IMG/VR virus record: IMGVR_UViG_3300020167_000003 | Coordinates: 1 to 37,159 of that record | Length of the DNA: 37,159 nt | Reading direction: 5' to 3' (one strand) | Source: a virus | Part shown: positions 1,789-35,653 of the stretch, piece by piece | How the letters are laid out: every line of letters starts with the position of its first letter | Numbering within the stretch: the stretch's first letter is position 1 | Program-made: the position numbers and the translations under genes | Notes under the pieces: generated by a model | Told to the model about the DNA's origin: nothing | Database searches by the model: none | Seen by the model: only the letters and a program-made list of their open reading frames with translations

Positions 1789-3978
1789 ATGAAAAATGAG
1801 TATTTAGATTTTCTAAACAAGAAACAAAAAGCACATATCCTTTCGGGATTTGATGTGAACGAAAATGAGTTAAACAAACAAATGTTTGACTTTCAAAAGT
1901 TCATTGTTAAACGGGCTTTAAAAGCTGGTAAGTATGCCATATTTGCCGACTGCGGACTTGGTAAAACTTTAATGCAACTTGAATGGGCTAACAGAGTGAA
2001 CAAAGAAACCAATAAACCTGTATTGATACTTGCTCCGCTTGCAGTTGCAGGACAAACAATTAAAGAGGGTGCAAAATTTCACATTGATATTTGCCGATAC
2101 GATGGCAGTAATGCACCGATACAAATTAGCAACTATGAACAACTTGAAAATATTGATTGTAGTTTGTTTTCGGGAATTGTTTTAGATGAAAGCTCTATTC
2201 TTAAAAACTTTGAAGGTGCTACAAAAAAACTGATATTAGATTTGTTTGCAAAGACACCCTACAAACTTGCTTGCACAGCAACACCAAGCCCAAACGACCC
2301 GATGGAATTAGGCAACCATTCAGAGTTTTTAGATGTGATGGGAAGAAATGAAATGCTTGCAATGTATTTTGTTCACGATGGCGGAGAAACTGCAAAATGG
2401 AGATTGAAAGGACACGCTACAAAACTATTTTATCAATTCATTGGTAGTTGGGCTATAATGCTGAATAAACCTGCCGACATTGGATTTGAAATGTTAGGTT
2501 ATGATTTACCGACTTTGAATTTAATTGAAAAGCAAATTGTAACACCGAAAAGAGATAACGGTAGTTTGTTTAATGATGCAATAATTTCAGCAACTAATTT
2601 TAATGCTGAATTACGATTGACAAAAAAGGAACGACTGGAAGAAGTTGTAAGAATTGTAAACAGCCGACCCGAAGAAAATTTTATCATTTGGATTAAACAA
2701 AATGAGGAAGGCGAAATGCTTAAAAAACTTTTGCCCGATGCAATAGAAGTGAAAGGGGCTGATAGTAACGAATGGAAAGAAAAACACCTTTTAGGATTTG
2801 CAGAAAACAAATTTAGAATACTGATAAGCAAAACCAAAATCGCATCATTCGGAATGAATTATCAAAATTGCCGAAATCAAATATTTGCTTCTTTGGATTT
2901 TTCATTTGAGGGATTGTATCAGGCTATTCGCAGGAGCTACCGATTTGGGCAAAAGAATGAAGTAAATATTTATTTGATAACAACGGACACAATGGCGAAT
3001 GTAAAACAATCAATAGACACCAAACAAAAACAATTTGAAATTATGCAAGATGAAATGGGCAAAGCGGTAAACGCTAATTTAAACGGACAGTTAATGACTA
3101 CTGCCGACTTTGATTTAACCGAAGAAAAAAACGAATGGTATAAAATCAAAAGAGGCGATTGCGTTCAACTGATTACAGAACTTGAAAATGAAAGTGTAGG
3201 ACTTTCGGTTTTCTCTCCGCCATTTGCGGAACTATACACATACTCCAGTCATTTGGAAGATATGGGAAATAGTAAAAACTACAAAGAATTTTTAACTCAA
3301 TTTGGTTTCTTAATTAAAGAATTGCATCGGGTTTTAATTGGCGGTAGAAATGTTGCGGTGCATTGTATGGACTTGCCAATACAAAAGGGTAAGGAGGGTT
3401 ATATCGGATTGAGGGATTTTAGCGGAATGATTTTACAAGCGTTTCAAAGTTGCGGTTTCATTTATCATTCGAGGGTTACGATTTGGAAAGACCCAGTAGT
3501 TGAAATGCAAAGGACAAAAGCAAAAGGACTTTTACATAAGCAAGTGAAAAAAGATAGCACACAGGTAAGAGTTGGAATACCTGACTATGTAATGATATTT
3601 AGAAAAGAAGGAGAAGGAACCGACCCAGTTACGAATACTGAATTGCCTGTAAACTTGTGGCAAAAATACGCTTCGCCAGTTTGGATGGATATTGATTACG
3701 GAAATACTTTACAGGGTTTCAGAAATGGCAGAGAAGATAATGACGAGAAACATATTTGCCCTTTGCAGTTAGATACGATTGAAAGATTAATACACCTTTA
3801 CAGCAACAAAGGGGACACCGTATTTACTCCATTTATGGGTATTGGTAGCGAAGTGTATCAGGCAGTTAAAATGGGCAGAAAAGGAATAGGATTTGAATTG
3901 AAGGAAAGTTATTTTGATTTGGCAAAGGCAAATATTAAAATGGCTGTTGGTGCTAAATCGCAAACTACTATTTTTTAA
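1789..3978 (+). CDS. Fused SNF2-like helicase / N4-N6 DNA methyltransferase
   Basis: A 729-aa two-domain protein. Residues 1-430 are a superfamily 2 ATPase: Walker A DCGLGKT (54-60), DExx-like LDES (132-135), motif III-like CTATPSP (162-168) and motif VI QAIRRSYRFGQ (378-388), the last typical of SNF2-type translocases. Residues 450-720 are a DNA amino-methyltransferase. Catalytic motif IV reads SPPF (476-479) and precedes the AdoMet-binding motif I FTPFMGIG (679-686), an order that fits beta-class N4-cytosine or N6-adenine enzymes. No nuclease domain is visible, so it looks like a modification enzyme coupled to DNA translocation rather than a full restriction enzyme. It is flanked by repeated intergenic elements. 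Confidence 0.85.
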   Translation: MKNEYLDFLNKKQKAHILSGFDVNENELNKQMFDFQKFIVKRALKAGKYAIFADCGLGKTLMQLEWANRVNKETNKPVLILAPLAVAGQTIKEGAKFHIDICRYDGSNAPIQISNYEQLENIDCSLFSGIVLDESSILKNFEGATKKLILDLFAKTPYKLACTATPSPNDPMELGNHSEFLDVMGRNEMLAMYFVHDGGETAKWRLKGHATKLFYQFIGSWAIMLNKPADIGFEMLGYDLPTLNLIEKQIVTPKRDNGSLFNDAIISATNFNAELRLTKKERLEEVVRIVNSRPEENFIIWIKQNEEGEMLKKLLPDAIEVKGADSNEWKEKHLLGFAENKFRILISKTKIASFGMNYQNCRNQIFASLDFSFEGLYQAIRRSYRFGQKNEVNIYLITTDTMANVKQSIDTKQKQFEIMQDEMGKAVNANLNGQLMTTADFDLTEEKNEWYKIKRGDCVQLITELENESVGLSVFSPPFAELYTYSSHLEDMGNSKNYKEFLTQFGFLIKELHRVLIGGRNVAVHCMDLPIQKGKEGYIGLRDFSGMILQAFQSCGFIYHSRVTIWKDPVVEMQRTKAKGLLHKQVKKDSTQVRVGIPDYVMIFRKEGEGTDPVTNTELPVNLWQKYASPVWMDIDYGNTLQGFRNGREDNDEKHICPLQLDTIERLIHLYSNKGDTVFTPFMGIGSEVYQAVKMGRKGIGFELKESYFDLAKANIKMAVGAKSQTTIF

Positions 3979-4032
3979 ACCTCTTAAATTTTTTAAAAAA
4001 ATTATGAAGTGCGCTGGCAAAAATATTGCACA

Positions 4033-4089
4033 TAACAACTGGCTAAGCGTAACAAAAAGGGACACAAACCAATGCAAAAGACTGTAATA
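4033..4089. repeat. 57-bp direct repeat, copy 1
   Basis: The stretch beginning TAACAACTGGCTAAG and ending AAAAGACTGTAATA matches 5440-5496 at 56 of 57 positions; the only difference is C at 4048 against T in copy 2. It lies directly after the helicase-methyltransferase gene. Together the two copies bracket the cytosine methyltransferase gene in direct orientation. No transposase or integrase is near. Confidence 0.9.
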
Positions 4090-4107
4090 CATAAAGTTAG
4101 ATTAACG

Positions 4108-4127
4108 AAAGAACAAAGCAGTTCTTT
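4108..4127. other. Perfect 7-bp hairpin in intergenic DNA
   Basis: AAAGAAC (4108-4114) and GTTCTTT (4121-4127) are perfect inverted copies around the 6-base loop AAAGCA. The hairpin lies in the 249-base gap between the two methyltransferase genes and is followed by TAAAGG rather than a T-tract, so a terminator role on the plus strand is weak. The rest of the gap holds the 57-bp repeat and the GC-rich element. Confidence 0.45.
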
Positions 4128-4195
4128 AAAGGTTTTGAAGTCCTACGATGTCAACGTATCGTGTTAGTAGTCTGGTTTTATTTAAAGTTTTTTTT

Positions 4196-4211
4196 GGTGG
4201 GGTGCGTTGGA
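4196..4211 (+). repeat. GC-rich element upstream of cytosine methyltransferase gene (copy B)
   Basis: GGTGGGGTGCGTTGGA lies 16 bases ahead of the ATG at 4228 and follows a run of eight T. It resembles the element at 1746-1761 in sequence, in its T-rich flank and in its position before a DNA-modification gene. Confidence 0.5.
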
Positions 4212-4227
4212 CATTTAATTTAAAAAT

Positions 4228-5442
4228 ATGGTAGTAGTAAGTTTATTTAACGGAATGAATACAGGCAGACAAGCCTTAGAAAATTGTGGCTACAAGGTTA
4301 CAAAATACTATTCAAGTGAATTGAAACCATACGCTATTGAATTAACTCAATTTCATTTCCCTGATACAATACAGGTAGGAGATGTAACAAAGTGGAGAGA
4401 ATGGGATATTGATTGGAGTAAAGTTGATTTAATATTAAGTGGTAGCCCTTGTCAAGATTTAAGTATTGCCGGAAAACGAAAAGGAATAAACGGAACAAAA
4501 AGTAGTTTGTTTTGGGTATTTATTGAAATATTAGAACACGTTAGAAGCCTTAACCCTGATGTTATATTTTTTCAAGAAAATGTTGGAAGTGCAAATAAAA
4601 AGGATATTGGAATAATGAGTAGAGCAATGGGGATTTATCCTGTAAGAATGAATAGTAGTTTGGTAACGGCACAATTAAGAGATAGATACTACTGGACAAA
4701 CATTAGAACTAAGCAAACAATGTTTGATGTTGTTACTGATATACCGCAGCCGGAAGATAGAAAAATAATGTTTAAAGACATTTTAACTGATGGCTATACA
4801 GATCGAGATAAAGCGAGAGCAATGTTACAAAGTGAAGGAAGGTTAAATACTGATATGGAAAAATTGCATAGGCGATACAAAACAACAGGATTTGGAAACA
4901 TTGTGTATCAATTAAACCCAAGCAAAGAAAGTGGTGGCAAACAACCGTATATGCAAAATAGAGTTTATGATGCAAATGGAAAATGCCCTGCTTTAACTGA
5001 AAGCCAAGCGAAAAACATTAAAGTGTATTTGGAAAAATATAATGATTTGATAAGCATTGAAAACGGCAAATTGAAAGTAAAAACAAATACAACCGATGGC
5101 TATCAATATGCAACTGAAAACGATTGTTTAAACTTATCATTTCCGACAAGCACAACTAGGAGAGGAAGAATAACGAAAGGTAAATCACCTTGTTTATTGC
5201 AAGGAAATGAACCACTATTTGCATTTACAGGCGATAATATTAGACCACTAAATAAAATTGAACTATGCAGATTACAAGGTTTCCCTGATGATTATTGCGA
5301 CATACTAACAAGGAATAAGGCAGCGAGTTTATTAGGTGATGGATGGACTTTACCGATTGTAGAGCATTTTTTCTCCTTTTTAACTTTTGAAAAAAGTTTA
5401 GAGAGCGTGGGCAAAAAAACTTTAAATAAAACTTGCTACTAA
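4228..5442 (+). CDS. dcm: DNA (cytosine-5) methyltransferase
   Basis: A 404-aa C5-cytosine methyltransferase that would methylate phage DNA, most likely to evade host restriction. The usual motif order is present. Motif I is LFNGMNTG (6-13). Motif IV is SGSPCQD with catalytic Cys75, motif VI is ENV (117-119), and motif VIII is QLRDRYYW (149-156). A long variable region (about 160-330) would hold the target-recognition domain, and motifs IX-X are the C-terminal RPLNKIELCRLQGFP and GDGWTLPIVEHFF. No partner restriction endonuclease is visible. The stop codon falls at the start of the second 57-bp repeat, so the gene end abuts the repeat. Target sequence cannot be predicted. Confidence 0.93.
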   Translation: MVVVSLFNGMNTGRQALENCGYKVTKYYSSELKPYAIELTQFHFPDTIQVGDVTKWREWDIDWSKVDLILSGSPCQDLSIAGKRKGINGTKSSLFWVFIEILEHVRSLNPDVIFFQENVGSANKKDIGIMSRAMGIYPVRMNSSLVTAQLRDRYYWTNIRTKQTMFDVVTDIPQPEDRKIMFKDILTDGYTDRDKARAMLQSEGRLNTDMEKLHRRYKTTGFGNIVYQLNPSKESGGKQPYMQNRVYDANGKCPALTESQAKNIKVYLEKYNDLISIENGKLKVKTNTTDGYQYATENDCLNLSFPTSTTRRGRITKGKSPCLLQGNEPLFAFTGDNIRPLNKIELCRLQGFPDDYCDILTRNKAASLLGDGWTLPIVEHFFSFLTFEKSLESVGKKTLNKTCY

Positions 5443-33754: not shown

Positions 33755-33900
33755 AGATATTACCTTACAACCCACGCAAGAAAGAAACAGTAAAGGTTGA
33801 ACCACCTTATTTGTGGTACAATGCTTATACGGGCGAATACTTTAGGAGTTATTTTACAAAAAATTATCATAATAGTTTGTTTATTTATCAAATAAAATAG
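33751..33900 (+). CDS. 49-aa hypothetical protein
   Basis: A frame coupled to the membrane-protein gene by ATGA. The product starts KILPYNPRKKETVKVEPPY and is rich in Tyr and Phe (WYNAYTGEYFRSYF). I do not recognise it. Its last codons overlap the promoter candidate that drives the Sak4 operon. Confidence 0.5.
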   Translation: MKILPYNPRKKETVKVEPPYLWYNAYTGEYFRSYFTKNYHNSLFIYQIK

Positions 33901-33909
33901 TTACATTTG
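33877..33909 (+). promoter_or_regulatory. Promoter for the Sak4 operon and its leader RNA
   Basis: TACATTTG (33902-33909) is a full -7 match. A TTG at 33877-33879 lies 22 bases upstream, slightly long for the Bacteroidota spacing. A start near 33916 would place the leader RNA at the very 5' end of the transcript. Confidence 0.5.
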
Positions 33910-33911
33910 CA

Positions 33912-34029
33912 TAGGAATTAACGACTCCTATTTACAGTCTGACAAATATTAACAGACCTCTTTAGAGGGTGGTTTCGGTGTCAGACCCGAATAGACTTCG
34001 TAAGTCAGCTACTCTCTAAAGAGGTTTTT
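33912..34029 (+). ncRNA. Candidate structured leader RNA with three-way junction and pseudoknot
   Basis: The elements are, in order: hairpin TAGGA/TCCTA (33912-33916 with 33926-33930); GTCTGAC (33937-33943); a long helix, 33954-33973 with 34008-34027, whose core CCTCTTTAGAG/CTCTAAAGAGG (11 bp) is perfect and which extends on both sides with a few G-U pairs. Inside the helix are two hairpins: TTCGG/CCGAA (33974-33978 with 33987-33991, loop TGTCAGAC) and GACTT/AAGTC (33994-33998 with 34002-34006, loop CGT). The loop sequence GTCAGAC (33980-33986) is fully complementary to the upstream GTCTGAC, giving a 7-bp pseudoknot. The helix ends in TTTTT, 14 bases before the Sak4 ATG, so it could act as a terminator or attenuator. 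I do not know this motif. Confidence 0.6.
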
Positions 34030-34043
34030 AATTTAAAAACAAA

Positions 34044-34877
34044 ATGGAATTAAAAAAAGCAACAAGACAGCAGGTAAAACTTCGTATGGGTTTATCTGCT
34101 GTCAGCGGAGGCGGTAAGACCTATTCTGCATTATTATTGGCATACGGTATTACAAATGATTGGAGCAAGATTGCAGTTATCGACACAGAGAATGGTTCTG
34201 CATCACTCTACTCGCATTTAGGGGAATTTTTAACGATTGATTTCAAAGTACCCTATTCGCCTGAAAGATACATTGAATGTATCAAGGCTTGTGAAGGTGC
34301 AGGAATTGAAGTATGTATCATTGATTCCATTACTCACGAATGGGACGGTAAAGGAGGTATTATTGAAATCAGCAACTCTATGAGTGGTAATAGTTTCACT
34401 AATTGGGCGAAGATTACACCTCGTCACGATGCTTTCATTAATGCAATACTACAAAGCCCTATGCACATGATTACGTCTGTTAGACGTAAGCAAGACTATG
34501 AAATGAGCAAAGGAAGTGATGGTAAAGTGAAAGTAGAAAAAGCAGGATTAAAGGAGATTACTCGTGAGGGTTTTGAATATGAGCTAACTCTAAACTTCAA
34601 CTTAGACCTTAACCACCACGCAACAGCATCTAAGGATAGAACAGGATTGTTTATGGATAAGCCTGAATTTACTATTACGGTTGATACTGGTAAGATTATA
34701 AAAGAGTGGTGTAATAGTGGAGTTGAGCCTGAATTACCACCACTTAACGACACCCAATTTGATAAAGCATTAAGCCGAATCAATGCAGGAGAGAATTTAT
34801 TGCCACAATTACAGAAGTCATTTAAACTTACTGACGCACAATTGAAACAATTGAAAGTGGGGGACTTGACTAAATGA
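34044..34877 (+). CDS. Sak4-like RecA-fold ATPase (phage recombinase)
   Basis: A 277-aa protein with a RecA-fold ATPase core: Walker A SGGGKT (21-26), AVIDTENGSA (44-53), Walker B EVCIIDSI (89-96), then a basic MITSVRRKQDYEM segment and a C-terminal KIIKEWCNSGV plus a small helical tail. This matches phage AAA/Sak4 annealase-recombinases, which work with an SSB-like protein in recombination and replication. It is the first gene after the structured leader and is coupled by ATGA to the Gp157-like gene. Confidence 0.8.
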   Translation: MELKKATRQQVKLRMGLSAVSGGGKTYSALLLAYGITNDWSKIAVIDTENGSASLYSHLGEFLTIDFKVPYSPERYIECIKACEGAGIEVCIIDSITHEWDGKGGIIEISNSMSGNSFTNWAKITPRHDAFINAILQSPMHMITSVRRKQDYEMSKGSDGKVKVEKAGLKEITREGFEYELTLNFNLDLNHHATASKDRTGLFMDKPEFTITVDTGKIIKEWCNSGVEPELPPLNDTQFDKALSRINAGENLLPQLQKSFKLTDAQLKQLKVGDLTK

Positions 34878-35365
34878 AAGTAGCATTATACCAAATCGAA
34901 CAGGAGTACATGATACTTGCTGATGAGATTATATCTAACGAGGGGGAATTATCCCCCGAATTAGAAGAAAGATTAATGATTAACCAAGAACAGTTGGAAA
35001 AGAAAGGTATTGGATATGGTTATATCATTAAGGATATAGAGTTAGAGGTTGATGCTATTGATGATGAGATTAAACGATTAACAGCTTTGAAGAAATCACG
35101 TATCAATGCAGTTGATAGACTTAAAACTTCGTTATCACAGGCAATGCAATTATTTGATATTTCAGAACTTAAGACACCAACTTTAAAAATTAACTTTAGA
35201 AAGTCAGAGAGTGTTGATGTTGATATTGCATTCTTAGATAAAGATTATATCAAAACAACCGTAACAGAAACAGCAGATAAAGTAGCCATTAAAGAAGCTC
35301 TAAAAAATGGAATCAAAGTAACAGGAGCAATATTAAAAAGTAATTTAAACCTTCAAATAAAATAA
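34874..35365 (+). CDS. Gp157-like protein
   Basis: A 163-aa protein with the Sipho_Gp157 pattern: helical N-terminal half (ALYQIEQEYMILADEII), a coiled coil (IELEVDAIDDEIKRLTALKK), then a beta C-terminal part with FDISELKTPTLKINFRKSES, VDVDIAFLDKDYI and IKEALKNGIKVTGA. The family is carried next to phage recombination genes; its biochemical role is not settled. It lies between the Sak4-like and DUF3127 genes. Confidence 0.8.
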   Translation: MKVALYQIEQEYMILADEIISNEGELSPELEERLMINQEQLEKKGIGYGYIIKDIELEVDAIDDEIKRLTALKKSRINAVDRLKTSLSQAMQLFDISELKTPTLKINFRKSESVDVDIAFLDKDYIKTTVTETADKVAIKEALKNGIKVTGAILKSNLNLQIK

Positions 35366-35368
35366 AAC

Positions 35369-35653
35369 ATGGAAAATTTATCATTTAACGGCAATGTAAA
35401 AGTAATCGGAGCAGTAGAGCAAATATCCGACAAGTTTAAAAAACGCTCTTTAGTAGTAACAATTGAGGGTCAATATCCCCAACATATCGAAGTACAGGCA
35501 GTCAATGACCGTGTAGTTATGTTCGATAACCTTCTTCCCGGAGATGCTGTCACTTGTCACATTAATTTGAGAGGCAGAGAATGGCAAGACCCGAAAGGCG
35601 GAGTTAAATATTTCAATACTTTGGAGTGTTTGAAGTTGGATAAAGTGGGGTAA
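35369..35653 (+). CDS. DUF3127-like OB-fold protein, probable SSB
   Basis: A 94-aa protein: SFNGNVKVIGAVEQISDKFK, KRSLVVTIEGQYPQHIEVQ and LRGREWQDPKGGVKYFNTLE. This is the DUF3127 pattern, an SSB-like OB-fold family common in Bacteroidota and their phages. It likely covers single-stranded DNA for the Sak4-like recombinase and the primase. It is the last gene of the operon, followed by a strong terminator. Confidence 0.82.
   Translation: MENLSFNGNVKVIGAVEQISDKFKKRSLVVTIEGQYPQHIEVQAVNDRVVMFDNLLPGDAVTCHINLRGREWQDPKGGVKYFNTLECLKLDKVG

Follow-up and report, generated by a model that had tools for sequence, protein, structure and literature searches.

Ahead of sak4 and other replication-module genes, Bacteroidota phages carry about 37 leaders built on one plan, in which a TAnnTTTG-type promoter is followed by a hairpin at the 5′ end, a linker of ~16 nt, a terminator-like hairpin and a U-run, and in which the loop of the terminator hairpin is Watson-Crick complementary to the 5′ loop over 5–12 nt (the kiss); the ATG usually lies 7–30 nt past the U-run. 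The leaders are mostly unrelated in sequence and retain the architecture, and the ~37 include homologous members, such that their number is not that of independent origins. We interpret them as cis-acting attenuators in which a transcript would pair through its 5′ end with the loop of its own terminator, a reading to which we give somewhat better than even chances, and the class, as judged from sequence, looks like a widespread and undescribed gene switch of these phages. One copy, with good probability a divergent member, stands directly upstream of a sak4 gene in the window, the 37,159-nucleotide stretch of viral DNA analysed here, which belongs to a phage of Bacteroidota-type bacteria.

The leader upstream of sak4 in the window

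The elements of the leader and of the operon behind it are the following.

33876–33909, + strand: predicted Bacteroidota-type promoter from sequence, with TTTG at 33876–33879 and TACATTTG at 33902–33909 (consensus TAnnTTTG)
33911–33931, + strand: first leader hairpin, ATAGGA/TCCTAT, with a fold of −3.8 kcal/mol
33937–33943, + strand: 5′ pairing strand GTCTGAC, an exact 7-nt complement that a weak A-U hairpin could loop out
33954–34027, + strand: long terminator-like hairpin from folding, with a ~20-bp outer stem around two small hairpins (three-way junction)
33974–33991, + strand: inner hairpin TTCGG-TGTCAGAC-CCGAA from sequence, whose loop bears the 3′ pairing strand
33980–33986, + strand: 3′ pairing strand GTCAGAC, complement of 33937–33943, with equivalent loop-loop complements in ~36 other leaders
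33994–34006, + strand: second inner hairpin GACTT-CGT-AAGTC from sequence, peculiar to the window copy and seen in none of the other members
34025–34029, + strand: U-run TTTTT after the stem, from sequence
34044–34877, + strand: sak4-like recombinase gene, first after the leader, by tblastn matches to annotated RecA-like recombination protein/ATPase in phages and by phrog_1366
34874–35365, + strand: Mu Gam-like end protection gene of the sak4 operon, by PHROGs (phrog_253 and phrog_4932 for the gam/ssb pair)
35369–35653, + strand: ssDNA-binding protein gene of the sak4 operon, by the same PHROGs pair

TAnnTTTG is the Bacteroidota promoter consensus, and transcription of the window leader is expected to start near 33915. 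A preliminary description of this region had listed an 11-bp stem extending to ~20 bp, two 5-bp hairpins, a loop complement, a first hairpin, TTTTT and the ATG, and letter-by-letter checking and folding find all of them at the positions it had given. The stem pairs 33957–33967 (CCTCTTTAGAG) perfectly with 34014–34024 (CTCTAAAGAGG) in a helix that reaches ~20 bp and encloses the perfect hairpins TTCGG/CCGAA (33974–33978/33987–33991) and GACTT/AAGTC (33994–33998/34002–34006); GTCAGAC (33980–33986) is the exact reverse complement of GTCTGAC (33937–33943); the small first hairpin pairs 33912–33916 with 33926–33930; and the sak4 ATG follows directly downstream at 34044. The minimum free energy structure draws TTCGG/CCGAA somewhat differently from the scheme first proposed. 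That such pairings are unlikely by chance, as was also suggested, is supported by the fold energy of 33900–34043 (−45.1 kcal/mol versus −25.5 ± 3.6 for dinucleotide shuffles, z −5.4, 0/200 as good), where the terminator-like hairpin at 33953–34027 folds at −36.8 kcal/mol, and by the loop complement itself, as 52/20,000 shuffles of the 42-nt upstream stretch give a 7-nt complement of the 8-nt terminator loop.

The second strand of the contact is less regular. An A-U hairpin at 33929–33948, which would loop out GTCTGAC, has an energy of 0.0 kcal/mol alone, that is, no stable fold, and shares 3 nt with the first hairpin; for both reasons the 5′ partner is probably single-stranded in the window copy and lies beside the first hairpin. 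The weakness of this partner hairpin, together with simple terminators at the same place ahead of sak4 in several relatives (L049, L054 and L061), would suit an ordinary terminator of the upstream operon with a coincidental loop complement, yet the shuffle frequency for the window copy alone, taken with the promoter, the location of the leader and the like plan of five other sak4 leaders, makes that explanation most improbable.

Searches for relatives of the sequence itself were negative. Rfam 15, the check that the preliminary description had called for, holds no family at or above the gathering threshold for the window, relaxed thresholds giving noise only, and no match for six loci holding other members of the class; the c4 antisense RNA (RF01695) matches neither the window nor these six loci. 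With blastn against phages we found no relative of the window leader sequence, an exact-sequence search with part of the window stem returned unrelated palindromes only, and no description of such a leader class was found in the literature searched. A tRNA or tmRNA identity for the window leader was rejected, as was a ligand riboswitch: the riboswitch-like sensor initially considered finds no conserved aptamer-like sequence among the leaders.

Elsewhere in the window, matches to a helicase and a DNA methyltransferase lie at 1789–5442 and sak4/gam/ssb at 34044–35653; because these genes stand at its start and end, respectively, the window would appear to be a circular genome linearized within the replication module.

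Leaders conserved in architecture

Sequence and comparison establish the pairing, its upkeep without shared sequence, the positions of promoter and start codon, and the enrichment of U-runs. Among Sak4 relatives (58 fetched first, more added later), six sak4 leaders, those of the window, L019, L052, L123, L145 and L152, follow one plan with unrelated sequences: a 5′ segment, usually looped out by a hairpin, exactly complements the inner loop of a terminator-like hairpin that sits just 5′ of the sak4 ATG. Their kissing pairs are GTCTGAC/GTCAGAC, TGGTCAGA/TCTGACCA, TGGTAGTAG/CTACTACCA, ACGCAAG/CTTGCGT, CTTCTGAC/GTCAGAAG and GTTGCGG/CCGCAAC. The majority of the sak4 relatives examined lack a structured leader or carry just a simple terminator, such that conservation upstream of sak4, whose absence would have spoken against the preliminary description, holds for these six and not for most other sak4 genes. 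Two observations on single loci stand beside this comparison: the promoter regions of L052 and L145, ~60–130 bases 5′ of the first hairpin, are near-identical (CCCCCTAAAAGTTTGGAAGTkTCGTAAACTTTCGGTAnnTTAGTAT) and are followed by leaders unrelated in sequence, and the L034 contig carries a short coding-like repeat (GGCTCTGGCTCTGGC...) ~10–130 bases ahead of sak4.

Class-wide scans, with leaders exchanged between loci as controls, recover the plan well beyond sak4. Of the terminators preceded by a strict TAnnTTTG and followed by an ATG, 13/188 have a kiss versus 0.30 expected; the window copy is among the finds of this unsupervised scan, and the L165 case, one of these 13, looks fortuitous. Scanning without the U-run criterion gives 11/1503 versus 0.2 expected (9 versus 0.0 at a higher cut), and scanning without the promoter criterion gives 31/9497 versus 6.3 expected. 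At least five T in the eight bases that follow were found after 8 of the 10 listed matches of the U-run-free scan; among 2881 background stems of those contigs, the share is 7.4%. Since these U-runs were enriched without being selected, they are separate evidence for an intrinsic terminator. When weak A+T kisses were admitted in a relaxed promoter-anchored scan, the yield barely exceeded that of its control, which limits the class to strong, G+C-containing kisses with hairpin energy cuts. By the names read from their translations, the genes behind class members also resemble helicases, primases, DnaD-like proteins, and HNH and YqaJ nucleases; the link to Sak4 first proposed therefore stands for six leaders and is too narrow for the class, which also precedes these and other replication-module genes. 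In L243 (6735–6830) and L248 (9041–9124), the promoter sequence is identical and the kissing hairpins and downstream genes are entirely different, as if leader plus gene had been swapped as a cassette between such loci.

The anatomy of the class was compiled from 34 curated members, a list chosen partly on the features shown, the selection-free figures being 13 versus 0.30, 11 versus 0.2 and 8/10 versus 7.4%. In this list, an exact TAnnTTTG precedes 24/34 members, with a median of 7 nt to the 5′ hairpin; the hairpin thus begins a median of 7 nt past TTTG (mode 5–7), close to where transcription is expected to start. Between it and the terminator lies a linker with a median of 16 nt and a narrow spread, the leader is ~80 nt long, and the median distance from stem to ATG is 12 nt; in many members, only 7–12 nt separate the ATG from the base of the terminator hairpin. 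The 5′ kissing strand is rich in G. Within homologous groups, the 5′ stem is kept by two-sided changes around a constant kiss (GCACC/GGTGT, GCAAC/GTTGT, TGCC/GGCA, TCATC/GATGG), and a further such change, CACTAG/CTAGTG versus CCAG/CTGG, is found in homologous leaders; a MAFFT alignment of member terminators was inconsistent with structure.

The same distances bear on a reading in terms of translational control or mRNA protection, whereby the 5′ hairpin and the kissed second hairpin would fold into a compact cap, either blocking or positioning the ribosome at the ATG or shielding the 5′ end of the mRNA from nucleases, termination being secondary. A 5′ hairpin 5–7 nt past TTTG in most members, a stem ending a median of 12 nt before the ATG, and the imperfect U-tracts of one homologous group (L263/L358/L363) all fit such a role; enrichment of unselected U-runs and a tail as U-rich as in typical terminators speak against it, and we consider it unlikely.

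Measured against this anatomy, the window copy has the class promoter TACATTTG at 33902–33909 directly upstream, a hairpin and U-run spanning 33954–34029 with the ATG at 34044 close behind, and seven Watson-Crick pairs joining the 5′ region to the terminator loop, at least six being required for the class. It departs from it in a linker of 5 nt instead of the typical ~16 nt, in the 5′ strand hairpin (33929–33948), which has no stable fold alone, and in an extra inner hairpin, which creates a three-way junction that no other member shows. Of the structure originally drawn, the pairing between 5′ region and terminator apical loop thus extends to the whole class, whereas the three-way junction belongs to the window alone and has no comparative support. 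The broader proposal, that the leader is a structured RNA of an undescribed kind with a pseudoknot-type contact and probably acts as an attenuator, gains from the cross-phage comparison and the lack of an Rfam match; by sequence and by the class-wide U-run enrichment, the window carries a predicted intrinsic terminator in the 5′ leader, a feature of transcription attenuators.

A candidate attenuator and competing readings

In the attenuation mechanism that we favor, transcription would begin at the TAnnTTTG-type promoter and the short 5′ hairpin would be made first; after the linker of ~16 nt, the intrinsic terminator hairpin would follow, and its apical loop would pair with the 5′ loop in a kissing complex, or in a pseudoknot-type contact in the window version. 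Polymerase would then either stop at the U-run, yielding an RNA of ~80–115 nt, or read through into the replication or recombination gene. We infer that transcription in the cell ends at this hairpin and that the kiss, which would form as the terminator loop exits the polymerase and would be compatible with the finished stem, alters termination efficiency, some phage or host factor setting readthrough so as to time or limit expression of the replication genes.

Plain folds of the complete leader leave the 3′ kissing strand 85% unpaired, and the terminator stem and the kiss are therefore compatible. Folds of transcripts cut before the 3′ arm of the terminator reveal no consistent pairing of its 5′ arm and no classical antiterminator. 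They give no sign of a switch between mutually exclusive states, which counts against the attenuator reading; these folds also mostly open the 5′ hairpin, as expected if the complementary strands pair. The kiss could also form in three dimensions without opening the 5′ hairpin, as a hairpin-loop pseudoknot, with the polymerase still near the terminator. From the compatibility of kiss and stem and the lack of an antiterminator, we infer attenuation in cis, the transcript engaging its terminator loop with its 5′ end.

Loop sequences specific to each phage and leader, and the case of L003 and L008/L248, which share a promoter and have entirely different hairpin pairs and downstream genes, would also suit a terminated leader of ~80 nt that acts in trans as a small RNA, for example in superinfection immunity like P4 CI/P1 C4, its loop pairing with the leader of an incoming phage. 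Both partners are, however, always present in cis at a narrow linker length, several leaders of one phage differ in their loops (L249, L252, L309), and a c4 antisense RNA match is absent; we see a slim chance for this reading.

Some members share more than the plan. An AGUA/GAA internal loop lies below the kissing hairpin in P2559S, 11b, L027 and L152, and a GGAUA/UUGAA variant in L263, L358, L362 and L363; judged by the established bulged-G (loop E) signature, both loop types resemble a bulged-G/loop E or tandem G·A module. An internal-loop descriptor that ignores the kiss returned 10 U-tailed matches, 7/10 of which kiss. Recurrence of the two loop types in independent members, this overlap with the kiss, and a shape retained without sequence would be expected of a protein-bound leader, whose shape a phage or host protein would read for autoregulation or antitermination, the kiss merely holding that shape. 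The AGUA/GAA loop is nonetheless absent, by inspection, from the window copy and from many members, and the downstream genes differ so widely that no single autoregulator is evident, which renders this alternative quite improbable.

Returning to the cis attenuator, we tentatively entertain, at rather less than even chances, a stronger form of it: a self-contained, sequence-independent RNA device in which the nascent 5′ end would capture its own terminator loop and set readthrough kinetically, without ligand, leader peptide or antisense RNA, and which would have been reused often in Bacteroidota phages to time replication genes.

Distribution, known systems and implications

Four isolates carry a class leader: Flavobacterium phage 11b, ahead of PHG11b_62; Croceibacter phage P2559S, before the ATG at 34000; Polaribacter phage P12002S, with an 8-bp kiss and an ATG at 33785 that is the annotated start of the primosomal protein gene; and Riemerella phage RAP44, with a 12-nt complement ahead of gp54. 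We found no convincing member in P12024S, P12024L, 6H and part of FL-1, no curated member in 80 Bacteroidota chromosomal or prophage loci (1.23 Mb), and no occurrence of one subfamily pattern in 395 Bacteroidia genomes. Slightly upstream of the terminase large subunit gene, the two Nonlabens phages P12024S (L366, gp33) and P12024L (L371, gp35) encode proteins annotated with Sigma-70 region 2, possible phage-encoded sigma factors.

Several known systems share parts of the plan. Attenuator leaders of the plasmid pT181/pIP501 type and riboswitch expression platforms likewise place an intrinsic terminator just before the controlled gene and use loop-loop RNA contacts; unlike these systems, the class leaders show no antisense RNA or ligand, both kissing partners reside in one transcript, and kiss and terminator can coexist instead of excluding each other. 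The P4 CI/P1 C4 immunity RNAs (RF01695) are also phage leaders with short complementary loops and early termination, whereas the class has no Rfam match, keeps its complements always in cis within ~80 nt, and serves many genes, several per phage. Purine and lysine riboswitches resemble it in a loop-loop contact within the leader, and in the loop E-like internal loop of some members, but the class has no conserved ligand-pocket sequence and its kiss uses the terminator loop itself. HK022 put antitermination RNAs are 5′ leader hairpins of a phage that affect termination; their sequence is conserved, they do not kiss a terminator, and the terminators on which they act are distant.

Phages of Bacteroidota abound in gut and aquatic habitats, and little is known of their gene control. 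The class is not represented in Rfam; as its conservation is one of architecture only, ordinary sequence-based RNA discovery would miss it. The four cultured phages make the mechanism directly testable. If it holds, contact in cis between the 5′ end of a transcript and its own terminator loop would be a new way of tuning intrinsic termination.
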